A stretch of 64,000 nt of DNA, taken from Rhodococcus sp. RD6.2. Its GTDB lineage: Bacteria; Actinomycetota; Actinomycetes; Mycobacteriales; Mycobacteriaceae. Location: contig NZ_CVQP01000007.1 of the NCBI RefSeq assembly GCF_001040705.1, positions 428,422-492,421 on the forward strand, in the 5' to 3' direction. The position numbers and the translations under genes are program-made. Below are positions 43,791 to 48,537 of this stretch, in pieces. The notes under the pieces were generated by a model that was not told the DNA's origin, did no database searches, and saw only the letters and a program-made list of their open reading frames with translations. Position 1 is the stretch's first letter; every line of letters begins with the position of its first letter.

Positions 43791-44258
43791 TCAGGGGCAG
43801 CGGGCGGGCGCGTCCTCGGCGAAGGGCTCGTCGTCGGGGAGGACGTACGTGACGAGCATGACGAGGGGGGGTGTGCCCAGGTTGAGCCCGACGTGGTCGC
43901 CGCCGGGCTCCTCCGTGACCCACGACCCGGCGGGGGAGTCGACCCGCGAGCAGTCGGCGAGTACCCGGGAGAGCGTTCCCGAGACGACGAGACCCTGCAC
44001 GTGTCCGTTGTGGTGATGCCAGCCGGTGCTCCCGCCCGGCGCGATCTCGATGCGCCGCAGTGTGCCCTCGACCTCGTCCGGGACCGGGGGATGGCCCGCC
44101 GGTGGCGGCGGGATCAGCGAGGGTGCGAGTTCGAGTTCGGCGAGGGTCTCCGCGGTGACGCCCTGCGGCGGTGTCGCGGCTGCGGGTGCGGTGAAACCGA
44201 TCGCCGCGGCGAGGGCGAGGGCGCCTGCTGTGGTGAGACCAGGGGTCGAGGTGCGCAT
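43791..44258 (-). CDS. Secreted cupin-domain protein
   Basis: The 155-residue product has a signal peptide (MRTSTPGLTTAGALALAAAIGFTAPAAA) and a small cupin with metal-ligand cluster GWHHHNGHVQGLVVSGTL (His residues about 82-87) and C-terminal PGGDHVGLNLGTPP. It probably binds a divalent metal outside the membrane; enzymatic activity is unknown. ATG 44258 was chosen as the start of the signal peptide. Confidence 0.75.
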   Translation of the reverse strand: MRTSTPGLTTAGALALAAAIGFTAPAAATPPQGVTAETLAELELAPSLIPPPPAGHPPVPDEVEGTLRRIEIAPGGSTGWHHHNGHVQGLVVSGTLSRVLADCSRVDSPAGSWVTEEPGGDHVGLNLGTPPLVMLVTYVLPDDEPFAEDAPARCP

Positions 44259-44437
44259 GGCCGTGTCCGTTCGTCGGTTCGGCGGTGTCGTGTCAGTTCC
44301 CTCGGGGCGCGCTCGCGGTGGGGCGGCGCCTCGGAACGCTGTTCTCCGCACCCATCGTCCCGCACCCGGTCCCGGGTCGAGGGGGAATCGCGGTGTGGGT
44401 CCCCATCTGGAACAGGTTCTCGCTATGGTCTGAGCCC

Positions 44438-44914
44438 ATGCGCATTCGTCGTTCCTTCGCCATGGCCGCTCTCGCGGTGACCGCCGCTGCCGCGGCTTTC
44501 GTCCTCACTGCGGGACCCGCCTCGGCCACCCCGGCCGTGTCGGCCGACCCGACGCGCGTCGACTCGGAACTGGAGGCGATCGCCCGTTCCTACATCGATG
44601 CACTGGTCACGCACGACGCGTCTGCGGTGCCCTTCGCGCCGGACGCGACCCGTGTCGAGGCCGGTCTCAAGACCGGGTTCAACGGTCCGCAGCTGCGCTG
44701 GGACCTCGACCACGGCCCGCAGTACCGCGTCATCCAGGGCATTCGGGAGCTCGAACTGTCGGAGGAGAACGGCGTGGTGTCCGCGCGTTTCCTCCTCGAC
44801 GCCGGTTTCGCGGGCGCGAAGCTGATGACCGTCGAGATCGCGGAGACGTTCGAGATCACGGACGGATCGATCCGGACGATCGTCGCGCACATCACCCCGA
44901 AGTTCGGCGCCTGA
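44438..44914 (+). CDS. Secreted NTF2/SnoaL-like protein
   Basis: The 158-residue product has a signal peptide (MRIRRSFAMAALAVTAAAAAF..., cleavage near ASA) and an NTF2-like cone fold (SELEAIARSYIDALVTHDASAVPFAPDATRVEAGLKTG, then LELSEENGVVSARFLLDAG). It resembles a fungal/bacterial SnoaL-like family of unknown role. There is no ribosome binding site; TATGGT (44424-44429) precedes the ATG by 8 bases, so a leaderless message is possible. It is divergent from the cupin gene, and both encode secreted proteins. Confidence 0.68.
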   Translation: MRIRRSFAMAALAVTAAAAAFVLTAGPASATPAVSADPTRVDSELEAIARSYIDALVTHDASAVPFAPDATRVEAGLKTGFNGPQLRWDLDHGPQYRVIQGIRELELSEENGVVSARFLLDAGFAGAKLMTVEIAETFEITDGSIRTIVAHITPKFGA

Positions 44915-44934
44915 CGCCTTCCCGCCCGACGCCT

Positions 44935-44969
44935 GCGGCGCCGCACACCGACTCCGGTGGCGGCGCCGC
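44935..44969. terminator. Bulged GC-rich hairpin between convergent genes
   Basis: The stem pairs GCGGCGCCGC (44935-44944) plus CACCG with CGGTG plus GCGGCGCCGC (44960-44969), with a single bulged A and an ACTC loop. It lies between the NTF2-like gene and the small membrane protein gene and can serve both. Confidence 0.7.
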
Positions 44970-44977
44970 TCGCGTCG

Positions 44978-45280
44978 TCAGCCCTTGCTGATCACCTGGG
45001 ATGCGAGTGCCGTGCCCGCGGCGACGACTCCCACGGACGGCCACGCACCGATCTTCTTCGCCAGCGGATGCGAGCCCCCGAACGCGCCGACGTAGGTGCC
45101 GACGAGCGCCGCTGTGCGGGCGGGCCCCGACGTCCGAGCCCAGTTCGTCGCGCAGACCGCGCCGACCGCGGCGAGGACCGCTCCTCCGAGGGGACGGTTA
45201 CCGGTCTGTCGTGCGACGGCGTATCCGCCGACGATTCCGGCTGCGGCGAGGGCGGATACGGCGGTCTTGGGCAGTGCCAT
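44978..45280 (-). CDS. Small glycine/alanine-rich membrane protein
   Basis: The 100-residue protein has about three weakly hydrophobic helices (AVSALAAAGIVGGYAVARQ; LGGAVLAAVGAVCATNWA; VGVVAAGTALASQVI) and no recognised domain. ATG 45280 has a good AGGAG ribosome binding site. It is divergent from the HTH/Clp-N operon, and the shared 93-bp intergenic region carries the twin operators, so it may belong to the same regulon. Confidence 0.7.
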   Translation of the reverse strand: MALPKTAVSALAAAGIVGGYAVARQTGNRPLGGAVLAAVGAVCATNWARTSGPARTAALVGTYVGAFGGSHPLAKKIGAWPSVGVVAAGTALASQVISKG

Positions 45281-45326
45281 TTCTGATTCTCCTGCTCGGT
45301 TCGGTTGACTCGCTCCACGGTAGCGC

Positions 45327-45374
45327 GTCAACTTTTGTTGACAGGCCGGGGTCGTCAACCTAGATTGACATGTA
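45327..45374 (+). promoter_or_regulatory. Leaderless promoter with two GTCAA-N6-TTGAC operators
   Basis: A consensus promoter is visible: -35 TTGACA (45338-45343), 17-bp spacer, -10 TAGATT (45361-45366), with the expected start at the A of ATG 45374. Two inverted repeats GTCAA-N6-TTGAC lie at 45327-45342 (over the -35) and 45354-45369 (over the -10), 27 bp apart. A further TTGAC half-site is at 45305-45309. A repressor on both sites would shut the promoter. Confidence 0.8.
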
Positions 45375-45592
45375 TGACCGAGGCAACGAATCTCGCGGCA
45401 GCCGCGGGCAGTCCCGATCCCCAGGTCGGCCTGCGTGCAGTGCTCGCCCTCCGCCGCTTGCTGGAACGACTCGAGGCGCTGCAGGTGCAGAGCGCCCGTG
45501 ATCAGGGCTGGTCCTGGCAGGCGATCGCCGACGCGCTCGAGGTCAGCAGGCAGGCCGTACATCAGAAGCACAATCGACGAGGACGGAAGTGA
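45374..45592 (+). CDS. Small helix-turn-helix protein
   Basis: The 72-residue protein has a C-terminal HTH (RDQGWSWQAIADALEVSRQAVHQKHNRRGRK) like sigma region 4 or Trp-repressor-like folds, after a helical N-terminal part (LRAVLALRRLLERLEALQVQSA) that could dimerise. Translation starts at or next to the transcription start, so the mRNA is leaderless. It is the first gene of an operon with the Clp N-domain protein and is the natural candidate to bind the twin inverted repeats in its own promoter. Confidence 0.8.
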   Translation: MTEATNLAAAAGSPDPQVGLRAVLALRRLLERLEALQVQSARDQGWSWQAIADALEVSRQAVHQKHNRRGRK

Positions 45593-45594
45593 CA

Positions 45595-46170
45595 ATGTTC
45601 GAACGTTTCAGTGCGCAGGCTCGCTCTGCGGTCGTTGCGGCTCAGATCGAGGCGAGGGAACTGTCCGCGTCGCGGATCGGTACCGAGCATCTGCTGCTCG
45701 GAGTCGTTGTCGTGGAATCGGAGTCGCCGCTCGGTGAGGTCTTCGCCGGGGTCGGACTGACGCCGGACCAGGTGCGCGCCGATCTCGCCCGCGGCACCGC
45801 GGAACGACCACTGGGTGAGGCCGATGCCGACGCGCTACGGACCATCGGCATCGACCTCGACGCCGTCCGCGACAGCCTGGAGGCGAGCTTCGGGGCAGAC
45901 GCGCTCGCCGCCGACGCGGAGTCACACGATCGGACGGGGTGGTTCGCACGCCGGGCCGGGCACGTCCCCTTCACCCCGCAGGCGAAGAAAGTGCTCGAAC
46001 TCGCATTGCGGGAAGCGTTGGCCCGCAAGGACTCCACGATCGGCGCCGAACACGTGGTGCTCGGACTGCTGCGCGGCGCCGATCCCGCGGCCCTCGCCGT
46101 GATCACCCCCCACGTCGGCGCCGACGAGTTGCGGCGTCAGGTCGTCGCAGTCCTGGACCGCGCGGCCTGA
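45595..46170 (+). CDS. Clp N-domain protein without ATPase (ClpC2/ClpC3-like)
   Basis: The 191-residue protein is built from two Clp repeat motifs: MFERFSAQARSAVVAAQIEARELSASRIGTEHLLLGVV (residues 1-70) and VPFTPQAKKVLELALREALARKDSTIGAEHVVLGLL (about 120-190). These are the N-terminal adaptor/substrate-docking motifs of ClpC, but no AAA+ domain follows. Mycobacterial ClpC2 and ClpC3 are related ATPase-less proteins thought to shield ClpC1 from N-domain-binding antibiotics. ATG 45595 has GGACGGAAG upstream and lies 2 bp after the HTH stop. Its 3' end overlaps the convergent GNAT gene by 34 bp. Confidence 0.85.
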   Translation: MFERFSAQARSAVVAAQIEARELSASRIGTEHLLLGVVVVESESPLGEVFAGVGLTPDQVRADLARGTAERPLGEADADALRTIGIDLDAVRDSLEASFGADALAADAESHDRTGWFARRAGHVPFTPQAKKVLELALREALARKDSTIGAEHVVLGLLRGADPAALAVITPHVGADELRRQVVAVLDRAA

Positions 46171-46688
46171 CGGTCGAGGGCACGTCGCATCGCGATCCGG
46201 GGCCAGGCGTCGAGACCGTGCGCGGCCTCGCGGGCCCGGACCGCCCGCAGTTGCGGCCCGACCTCGGCGTCGGGGATCGGCTCGAATCCCAACCGACGGT
46301 AGTAGGGGCCGTTCCACGGGACGTCCGCGAACGTCGTCAGGGTCAGCCACCGCAGTCCACTGCCGACGCCCCACCGTCCGACCTCGTCGATCAGTTCGGA
46401 ACCGAGCCGACGACCGGCCCAGCGCGGATCCACCGACACCTGCTCGACGTGCGCGCACCCGTCGACCACGTCGGCGATCACGTAACCGACCGTGGTGTCG
46501 CCGATCTCGTCGTCGGACGCGGCGGCCACCCAGAGTCGGCCGTCGCGCAGAACGGCCTCCAGTTCTGCGACCGTGGGTGGGGCGTCGTCGGCGACCGCGG
46601 CCATGCCGATCGCCCGGAAGGGTTCGCCTGCGGCAACCTCGATTGCAGGAAGAAGGTCGAGGTCGGCGGCGGTCGCGGCACGAATCAT
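46137..46688 (-). CDS. GNAT family N-acetyltransferase
   Basis: The 183-residue protein has a single GNAT fold with the acetyl-CoA loop VSVDPRWAGRRLGSELIDEVGRWG (motif A, R/Q-x-x-G-x-G/A) and the later motif B region PYYRRLGFEPI. The acceptor is unknown; small-molecule amines are typical. The gene is convergent with the Clp N-domain gene, overlapping it by 34 bp, and divergent from the holin-like gene 35 bp away. Confidence 0.87.
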   Translation of the reverse strand: MIRAATAADLDLLPAIEVAAGEPFRAIGMAAVADDAPPTVAELEAVLRDGRLWVAAASDDEIGDTTVGYVIADVVDGCAHVEQVSVDPRWAGRRLGSELIDEVGRWGVGSGLRWLTLTTFADVPWNGPYYRRLGFEPIPDAEVGPQLRAVRAREAAHGLDAWPRIAMRRALDRQAARSRTATT

Positions 46689-46723
46689 GGCTCCTGTTCT
46701 ATCCCGTGTGCCAGCATGGGCGC

Positions 46724-47101
46724 ATGAGCTTTCTGTTGCGTCTGGTGATCAACGCGATCGCGATCTGGCTGGCCTCGGAGTGGGTCACCGGTATCGACAT
46801 CGCGACGAAGGACAACGTCAACCCCGTTGTCGTCATCCTCTTCATCGCGCTGGTGTTCACCGTCGTGAACGCTTTCGTCAAGCCGATCGTTCAGCTGCTG
46901 TCCCTGCCGCTGCTGATCCTCACTCTCGGGCTGTTCACCCTGGTGATCAACGCGCTGATGCTGCTGCTCACGGCCTGGATCACCGAGTCGACCGGACTCG
47001 GCATCTCGGTCGACGGCTTCTGGACCGCGGTCTGGGGTGCTCTCATCATCTCCCTGGTCAACATCGTGCTCACGGCGGTGTTCCCGAGCGCGAAACGCTG
47101 A
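46724..47101 (+). CDS. Phage holin family (superfamily IV-like) membrane protein
   Basis: The 125-residue protein has four closely packed transmembrane helices and the family sequence LVINAIAIWLASEWVTGI, ALVFTVVNAFVKPIVQLLSLPLLILTLGLF and GFWTAVWGALIISLVNIVL. Despite the family name, it is a common chromosomal membrane protein (YvlD-like) of unknown function and not evidence of a prophage. ATG 46724 is the first start that gives the full first helix. Confidence 0.85.
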   Translation: MSFLLRLVINAIAIWLASEWVTGIDIATKDNVNPVVVILFIALVFTVVNAFVKPIVQLLSLPLLILTLGLFTLVINALMLLLTAWITESTGLGISVDGFWTAVWGALIISLVNIVLTAVFPSAKR

Positions 47102-47115
47102 CCCGGCGGCCCGCC

Positions 47116-47150
47116 GCACGGTGTGACCGCAACGGTGCGTCACAGCGTGC
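47116..47150 (+). terminator. Hairpin after the holin-like gene
   Basis: Arms GCACGGTGTGAC (47116-47127) and GTCACAGCGTGC (47139-47150) pair at 11 of 12 positions around an 11-nt loop, 14 bp after the stop codon. The TGTGA/TCACA elements look CRP-like, but the spacing is wrong for that family. Confidence 0.6.
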
Positions 47151-47216
47151 CGATAGTCCAGACACACGAGAAAGCGCGTGAGCGGGACCGTTCACGTCGG
47201 CGGCGGGAGACCTGAC

Positions 47217-47660
47217 ATGGGGCGTGCAGGAGTGACGACGTGGCTGGTGGCCGCGGTGGTGGCCGGCATCGGGCTTGCCGGGGCGGCCCCCGCCACGGCC
47301 CAGAGCAGCAGTGCGGGGATCTCCGACCTGCGCATCGGCGTCGGGTACGGATGCCGCACGTCGGGGACCGGTCCTGCAGACTGGCGCACCACCGCCCACG
47401 TCTTCACCACCGTCACGAACACCGGTTCGGCACCGGTCCGTGATGTCGTCGCGCGCGTGCAGGTCCTCGCGGGATTCGCGACCGCGAACCGGGTCGCGGC
47501 GCTCGCACCGGGTGAGTCGGTCACCTTCGACAACGACACCCTCGCGAATGCGTTGATCCTCACCCCGGTTGGTGCCCTCGTGTCCGCGTCCGGGCTCGAC
47601 GCCAATCCACTCGACAACGCGTACGTGGGCCTCGCGCCGTTCGTGTGCTCGGCCCTCTGA
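47217..47660 (+). CDS. Secreted protein of unknown function
   Basis: The 147-residue product has a signal peptide (MGRAGVTTWLVAAVVAGIGLAGAAPATAQ) and a mature domain that looks like a single immunoglobulin-like beta fold (TTAHVFTTVTNTGSAPVRDVVARVQVLAG, VAALAPGESVTFDND), with two Cys (YGCRT and FVCSAL) placed to form a disulfide. ATG 47217 is preceded by GGGAG; a GTG at 47178 is in frame but lacks the site. It is convergent with menA, 7 bp away. Confidence 0.68.
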   Translation: MGRAGVTTWLVAAVVAGIGLAGAAPATAQSSSAGISDLRIGVGYGCRTSGTGPADWRTTAHVFTTVTNTGSAPVRDVVARVQVLAGFATANRVAALAPGESVTFDNDTLANALILTPVGALVSASGLDANPLDNAYVGLAPFVCSAL

Positions 47661-47667
47661 CCGCGGC

Positions 47668-48537
47668 TCAGCCGATCCCGAGCGCGAGGCCGGTGGCGGC
47701 GCCCCACACCAGCATCGTGGCGCCGGTGCCGGCGAGCGCGGGGATGAGCGCCATGCCCTGTGCGCCGGAGCGGATCGGCGAGTTGGCCTTGACGGCGAGA
47801 GGCACCGCCAGCAACCCGAGCAGCGCCCACGGCGTGCGCACCACGAGTACGAGTGTCGCGACGAACGGCACGGTCATCAGGGCGAGGTGCAGGACGCGGG
47901 TGCGGGCATCGCCGAGCAGTACGGCGAGGGTCCGCTTACCCGATTCGGTGTCGGTGGGGATGTCGCGCAGGTTGTTCGCGACCAGGACCGCCGACGACAT
48001 CGACCCGACCGCGATCGCGGCGACCAGTCCGACCCAGTCGACGCGTTCGGCCTGCACGTACTGGGTGCCGAGGACGGCGACGAGACCGAAGAACACGAAG
48101 ACCGCGATCTCGCCGAAGCCGCTGTAGCCGTAGGGGTTCGTGCCTCCGGTGTAGTACCAGGCGCCGACGATGCAGACGGCGCCGACCACGATCAGCCACC
48201 ACGCCGACGTCAGCGCCAACGCGACGCCGGCGACGGCGGCGATCCCGAAGCACGTGAAGGCGGCGCGTTTGACGGCGGACGGTGAGGCGAGCTTGGCGCC
48301 CACGAGCCGGACGGGGCCGACGCGCTCGTCGTCGGTTCCGCGGATGCCGTCGGAGTAGTCGTTGGCGTAGTTCACCCCGACGATCAACGCCATCGACACC
48401 ACCATCGCCAGCAGCGCCTTCCACCACACCGCGCCGTCCAGCGCCGCGGCGGCGCCGGTGCCTGCGAGGACGGGGGCGATCGCGTTCGGGAGGGTGCGCG
48501 GGCGGGCGCCTTCGATCCACTCGGAAACTGAAGCCAT
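47668..48537 (-). CDS. menA: 1,4-dihydroxy-2-naphthoate polyprenyltransferase
   Basis: The 289-residue UbiA-superfamily protein has about eight or nine helices and the prenyl-diphosphate Asp motif [16 protein letters not shown] (about residue 60-75) with a second motif [22 protein letters not shown]. It attaches the polyprenyl chain to DHNA in menaquinone synthesis. ATG 48537 follows GGAAGGATC at good distance and leads into [20 protein letters not shown]. It is divergent from the SARP-like regulator. Confidence 0.94.

Follow-up and report, generated by a model that had tools for sequence, protein, structure and literature searches.

A two-gene HTH and Clp_N operon in Rhodococcus with spacer-6 GTCAA operators, and its relation to the fused ClpC2 circuit

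The gene pair, its promoter and its operators

The window (the whole stretch of 64,000 nucleotides of Rhodococcus sp. RD6.2 DNA that was analysed) contains a two-gene operon on its forward strand, in which the open reading frames place a helix-turn-helix (HTH) gene first and a Clp_N gene second. The HTH protein P0001, a probable dimeric autorepressor of 72 amino acids, is encoded at 45374..45592 (+), starting from the ATG at 45374. The second protein, P0002, of 191 amino acids, is encoded at 45595..46170 (+) and may act as a mimic of the ClpC1 N-domain. Two alternative starts are available for it in the region 45589..45600 (+), a GTG at 45589 or an ATG at 45595, the former producing the sequence GTGA and a four-base overlap with the HTH stop codon; tight spacing is also found in relatives. 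The obvious comparison is with ClpC2, the fused HTH-Clp_N autorepressor and cyclomarin sponge of mycobacteria (PMC10030653). The order of HTH then double Clp_N, with no AAA+ module, is common to both (PMC10030653), but the pair is made of two genes in different reading frames whereas ClpC2, a single gene, carries its HTH/dimerisation domain in the same chain.

On our reading of which open reading frames are genes, the neighbours on both sides probably lie on the opposite strand. No terminator-like site was found within 45250-46300, nor any Rfam match within 44000-48000. A possible small divergent gene at 44978-45280 (-) encodes an alanine/glycine-rich product of around 100 amino acids for which Pfam gave no match at E 0.01. 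The operators lie in its intergenic region, and it might be co-regulated.

Two exact GTCAA-N6-TTGAC palindromes precede the HTH gene, the distal operator at 45327..45342 (GTCAACTTTTGTTGAC) and the proximal at 45354..45369 (GTCAACCTAGATTGAC), the distance between them being 27 bp. A promoter scan places the -35 hexamer TTGACA at 45338..45343 (+), within the right half of the distal operator, and the -10 hexamer TAGATT at 45361..45366 (+), contained in the proximal one and 17 bp from the -35. This TTGACA-17-TAGATT combination has 10 of 12 matches, where shuffled sequences lead one to expect 0.1 such sites, and is the sole sigma-70-like promoter in 45250-46300. The short distance from the end of the -10 to the ATG, seven bases, makes a leaderless transcript probable. 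The operators thus overlie the -35 and -10 of a predicted leaderless promoter, as likeness to ClpC2 requires: there too, two operators usually cover these elements of a leaderless promoter, and the GTCAA half-sites are the same (PMC10030653).

With up to one mismatch allowed, a scan of the window returned only these two GTCAA-N6-TTGAC sites, both exact; shuffles gave an expected 0.88 sites at this tolerance and two or more in 23 of 100 cases. Genome-wide, the exact spacer-6 motif occurs three times against three for the reversed pattern, in other words at the control rate. The motif count alone therefore says little, and the weight falls on conservation and on the two sites standing in tandem over the promoter. 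Two of the three exact sites are those at the window promoter. The third, at G000:C7:52821-52836 (L005), stands alone, and the frequency of the motif in this genome is no higher than the chance level given by the control.

P0001 is matched in Pfam by generic HTH models only, below their cut-offs (HTH_23, E 5.3e-5). Its structure model has a mean pLDDT of 91 and places residues 61 and 64 one turn apart on the last helix, the putative recognition helix (residues 59-67; 45548..45574, +). A profile of split HTHs matches the N-domain of fused ClpC2 over 50 columns that include this helix (97.1, E 5e-11), the RelI structure 9sdc at E 2.4e-4 and, weakly, the ClpC2 N-domain crystal structure 8ada (E 0.13). 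The ClpC2 dimer has a D46-R57 salt bridge (PMC10030653), and these residues correspond, on our reading of the alignment, to E31 (E or D in 13/13 profile rows) and the invariant R42 of the pair's HTH. No match to this HTH was found in phages.

The preliminary description had seen in P0002 two Clp repeats and no AAA+ domain, and this domain content is borne out: Pfam finds Clp_N (PF02861, E 2.7e-16) in two stretches and AAA+ is absent. By alignment, the cyclomarin-pocket residues are kept, as in ClpC2 (PMC10030653): F2 (45598-45600), along with F126 and E135, which lie in the stretch 45970..45999 (+) and are equivalent to F80 and E89 of ClpC1. The predicted structure of P0002 is close to that of drug-bound ClpC1. 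The table of pocket residues across the family omits 9 of 85 Clp_N proteins, whose starts fall outside the pattern used. Compared with the ClpC1 N-terminal domain, P0002, which stands without the AAA+ modules, is about 45 residues longer, mostly between the repeats, and it is longer there than ClpC2 too. The inter-repeat region (residues 75-109; 45817..45921, +) bears the motif GIDLDAVR, is conserved in the split family and forms helices in the model; because part of it looks like the final portion of the first Clp repeat in ClpC1, the inserted residues are ambiguous.

Distribution of the pair and coexistence with fused ClpC2

All six genomes of the genus contain the pair, each with two spacer-6 operators upstream. 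Identity to the window proteins within the genus is 89-97% for the HTH and only 56-62% for Clp_N. Two genus members (L082 and L083) have an additional, divergent HTH match beside a short Clp_N-like open reading frame, with no perfect GTCAA operators.

A wider survey applied a profile built from 13 split HTHs to 296 class genomes, 154 of which gave a match at E 1e-6; the 130 best-scoring HTH loci, 30 of them chosen automatically and 100 retrieved in addition, were examined. A main family, defined as at least 97 bits in our own profile, accounts for 86 of the 130 loci, one per genome and hence 86/296 class genomes. A Clp_N open reading frame adjoins the HTH in 85 of these 86. The claim in the preliminary description of a dedicated 72-residue HTH partner is upheld by this figure, as well as by both reading frames being where it had placed them, and its concern that the two genes might rarely be conserved together can be set aside. 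The Clp_N start lies no more than 10 bases from the HTH stop in 77/77 scorable loci, 8 of the 85 having been omitted as their Clp_N start did not fit the pattern; the tight spacing and the constancy of the neighbour suggest a stoichiometric partner. At least one perfect upstream operator is present in 79/85 main-family pairs, which agrees with the proposed co-occurrence with GTCAA-N6-TTGAC promoters. Upstream of the 130 HTH loci, with spacers of 0-15 allowed, spacer 6 is found in 155 of 156 perfect palindrome matches; the remaining 345,313 bases of these loci hold five palindrome matches, four with spacer 6. No HTH-Clp_N fusion was found among the 130 spacer-6-type loci, a result that gives no sign of contact in cis and that we count against the explanation favoured below.

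The split-type HTH is present in 27/148 genomes of the genus of G054, which we take to be Mycobacterium. A Clp_N open reading frame lies on the same strand in 27/27 of them and a perfect spacer-6 operator in 26/27, the locus without one being L287. Four plasmid records also have an HTH match. In Rhodococcus fascians plasmid pGS01 (L269 2838-3630) the pair, annotated as a hypothetical protein and a Clp protease N-terminal domain-containing protein, sits with two spacer-6 operators between integrase/recombinase genes. Two spacer-6 operators likewise accompany the pair in a Nocardia farcinica record, and the HTH on a Streptantibioticus plasmid has Ser61 and goes with GTCAG-type sites. From these copies, the module can probably move.

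One idea, that the organism's own ClpC2 had been split to give this pair, was entertained and dropped: searching with P0002 had shown no fused ClpC2, but a fused-profile search located one in this genome at G000:C6:365609-366313. The pair thus coexists with a fused ClpC2 and would be a paralogous second circuit. The resemblance to ClpC2 put forward in the preliminary description accordingly holds as regards a double Clp_N without AAA+, but not in the sense of the pair being this organism's ClpC2, since it is a paralogue whose Clp_N falls on a separate branch. That branch is seen in an unrooted Clp_N tree, which took in 38/76 split and 27/53 fused rows: 38 split rows lie beyond a branch with support 99/94 and 27 fused rows beyond one with support 100/98. 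A recent fission of ClpC2 is not supported by this unrooted tree, where split and fused Clp_N occupy separate, well-supported sides.

Fused ClpC2 occurs in 5/6 genus genomes and, full-length or nearly so by our count from profile rows, in 79/296 class genomes; both systems are present in 42/296 and either in 123/296. We examined 53 fused loci (30 chosen automatically, 20 picked down the list and 3 profile members), and 51 of these yielded 95 operator matches, all with spacer 7. This accords with the published ClpC2 operator, CGTCAAC-n5-GTTGACG, which is GTCAA-N7-TTGAC and thus differs from the spacer of 6 at the pair. The present genome has only two exact spacer-7 sites, both at the fused clpC2 promoter, against four genome-wide for the reversed control. 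As neither motif is commoner than its reversed control, the counts do not bear on insulation, which we infer instead from where the sites lie and how they are conserved, the one-base spacer difference keeping the circuit of the pair apart from that of fused ClpC2 in the same cell.

The domain that reads the operator

Perfect operators are missing from many lower-scoring HTH loci, among which the ones bearing Ser or Thr at HTH residue 61 have GTCAG half-sites, still with spacer 6. Leaving base 5 of the half-site free, a site was found at 116/130 loci. The majority base at each was A at 94 Ala61 loci and G at 14 Ser/Thr61 loci, with no contradictions and eight ties (one Ala61, seven Ser/Thr61). 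The 14 of the 130 loci without a recognisable site are all Ala61, three of them in the main family, and we count them against the favoured explanation. By half-site, Ala goes with 336 A, 23 G, 6 C and 5 T, Ser with 41 G, 18 A and 1 T, and Thr with 15 G and 5 A, so that Ser/Thr proteins are more permissive of A, by tolerance or admixture, than Ala proteins are of G. The association persists on thinning the HTHs to below 70% identity (25/0/0/5, Fisher p 7e-6) and below 60% (10/0/0/3, Fisher p 0.0035).

A mutual-information scan covered 62 of 76 HTH columns and 70 Clp_N columns, many Clp_N columns being too gappy to include. Residue 61 ranks first of the 62 HTH columns, misassigning 0/100 loci, and residue 64, which also covaries with base 5, comes second with one misassigned; the best of the 70 testable Clp_N columns misassigns 6/97. 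An HTH tree from which residues 61 and 64 were masked needs five changes between Ala and Ser/Thr, of which well-supported branches force at least three; as its columns are few and many of its forks open, the count of independent events is uncertain. Two Ala rows within mainly Ser/Thr clades (L170 and L172) both have GTCAA operators. Covariation of a recognition-helix residue with operator base 5 argues that the HTH reads the operator, and lends support to the part of repressor that the preliminary description had given the HTH.

The covariation disagrees with the published placing of ClpC2 DNA reading. Taylor et al. assign it to the Clp_N half, from the weakened DNA binding of R185A/R189A (PMC10030653), an observation that we count against our favoured explanation. 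The term helix-turn-helix is absent from the available portion of that article's text, and its ClpC2 N-domain crystal, 8ADA, comprises residues 4-72, the protein having been proteolysed in the drop (PMC10030653). According to a weak profile alignment (E 0.13), the 8ADA sequence stops at the equivalent of V57, directly before the recognition helix. The position of R189, on our mapping, is Arg in 51/53 fused proteins, unlike the 76 split proteins, where it is mostly Ala (44, with Arg in 8). The two data sets would be compatible if reading of the sequence fell to the HTH and a Clp_N helix contributed affinity, in a kind of hand-over. An HTH in ClpC2 is not in itself new, since RelI resembles the HTH region of ClpC2 by HHpred in the accessible part of another report (PMC13284704). 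Among the literature matches listed, no description was found of the two-gene pair, the spacer difference or the covariation. As read from sequence, the HTH-operator covariation, taken together with the one-base spacer difference, would identify the DNA reader and separate two coexisting circuits, and we regard this as the most valuable result.

A candidate decoy circuit and its alternatives

The account that we favour, and consider rather probable as a whole explanation, is that the pair is a two-gene version of the autoregulated ClpC2 sponge. A dimer of the 72-amino-acid HTH protein would sit on both operators and block the leaderless promoter, while the co-transcribed Clp_N protein would serve as a sensor, stabilising or permitting repression in trans. 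Repression would be lifted once the Clp_N pocket is filled, whether with a cyclic peptide directed at ClpC1 or with unfolded clients of ClpC; large-scale expression of the operon would follow, and the Clp_N protein would absorb the ligand and spare ClpC1. The parts of this scheme differ in strength, and the circuit idea of the preliminary description is in effect half supported. Autorepression by the HTH of its own operon is very probable. By analogy with ClpC2, sensing of a ligand in trans by Clp_N has slightly better than an even chance of being correct, and a decoy role as the main benefit is evenly balanced. Cyclomarin binding, induction by cyclomarin and a physical link between Clp_N and the HTH would be expected from the pocket residues, the fold and the fused ClpC2 circuit as published in the available text (PMC10030653). 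ClpC2 is bound, and yet not induced, by ilamycin and ecumicin (PMC12913811), so that occupancy of the pocket alone need not derepress.

Several members of the HTH superfamily have comparable operators without a Clp_N neighbour, and Clp_N may therefore be a payload that is dispensable for control. Perfect spacer-6 operators accompany three HTHs, which directly precede a LigT-type phosphoesterase (L167), a beta-lactamase-fold enzyme (L210) and an ABC transporter (L214), and two further HTHs with imperfect operators lie directly upstream of AAA_5 proteins (L200 and L204). In the genus of G054 there are also HTH-DUF3887 loci without Clp_N, a group of nine, of which L304 and L307 fall outside the HTH pattern and were unscored: GTCAA-N7-TTGAC lies near the starts in six of the seven scored (7/7 matches having spacer 7), L305 being without a site. 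On a payload model, the HTH alone would repress and be released by another signal, such as its own instability or turnover by ClpC1P, and Clp_N would be only an induced product, a holdase or a competitor for ClpC1 substrates, with no control of the switch. This we think unlikely, though it merits serious attention. It draws on these other partners, including the spacer-7 DUF3887 fusions, and on the much faster divergence of Clp_N than of the HTH noted above for the genus, which we likewise count against our own account. It sits less well with the near-constant Clp_N neighbour of the main family and its closely spaced start, and with fused ClpC2, where ligand site and DNA-binding protein share one chain and, in the available part of the report, cyclomarin hinders DNA binding (PMC10030653).

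Two other readings seem to us highly improbable. Were Clp_N to read the operator, as proposed for the C-terminal domain of ClpC2 (R185/R189), the HTH would mainly dimerise; the poorer DNA binding of the ClpC2 double mutant speaks for this, but residue 61 predicts base 5 better than the top-ranked Clp_N column, HTH-DUF3887 proteins have spacer-7 sites without any Clp_N, and the Arg at the R189 position that fused proteins keep is seldom found in split ones. An equally small chance attaches to a toxin-antitoxin-like pair, with the HTH as an antitoxin relative (like RelI) and free Clp_N as a toxin acting on ClpC1P. The profile match to 9sdc is in its favour, as is the statement, in the accessible text, that some RelI homologues emerged from ClpC2 (PMC13284704). 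Yet fused ClpC2 protects cells from cyclomarin, the gene order and half-sites of the pair match those of ClpC2, and Clp_N proteins are expected to be non-toxic; moreover the RelSI authors, as far as the available text goes, found no likely cis-acting elements upstream of the RelSI operon and report no evidence of RelSI binding DNA (PMC13284704). RelI and the HTH-DUF3887 proteins belong to the same HTH superfamily as the pair's HTH (PMC13284704, available text), which differs from them in its partner.

Returning to the two-gene sponge, a broader reading that we are inclined to accept is that Actinobacteria run two insulated ClpC1-decoy circuits, built from the same HTH superfamily and GTCAA half-site, with spacer 6 in the two-gene form and 7 in fused ClpC2. 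Residue 61 would set base 5, and in ClpC2 the DNA would be read by the N-terminal HTH, the published crystal of which lacks the recognition helix, and not by the drug-binding domain. The HTH would then be a plug-in autorepressor, with Clp_N in cis or trans, DUF3887 or other effectors as input or payload. ClpC1 is a target for drugs against tuberculosis, and the action of cyclomarin-type compounds is blunted by the ClpC2 sponge; if the reading is true, a second, two-gene sponge with its own promoter code, and with the distribution given above for the class (86/296) and the genus of G054 (27/148), would predict where such drugs may be blunted. The covariation also offers a direct test of the ClpC2 DNA reader, the published mutants and the present data pointing to different domains.

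Minor observations concern possible relatives of the pair. The HTH-DUF3887 loci with spacer-7 sites, which suggest an undescribed autoregulated sensor, are L297-L299, L302, L303 and L306; the DUF3887 domain was confirmed in 3/3 proteins tested. M. smegmatis ClpC3 (MSMEG_3761) is described, in the available portions of the sources, as a small Clp protein homologous to the ClpC1 N-domain and upregulated with cyclomarin (PMC10864484, PMC10892018, PMC10454040). Across 396 genomes of the genus of G054, the M. smegmatis ClpC2 domain sequence reached 93% identity at best, so that M. smegmatis itself was not recognised among them; our guess is that ClpC3 may correspond to the Clp_N protein of a pair like this one.
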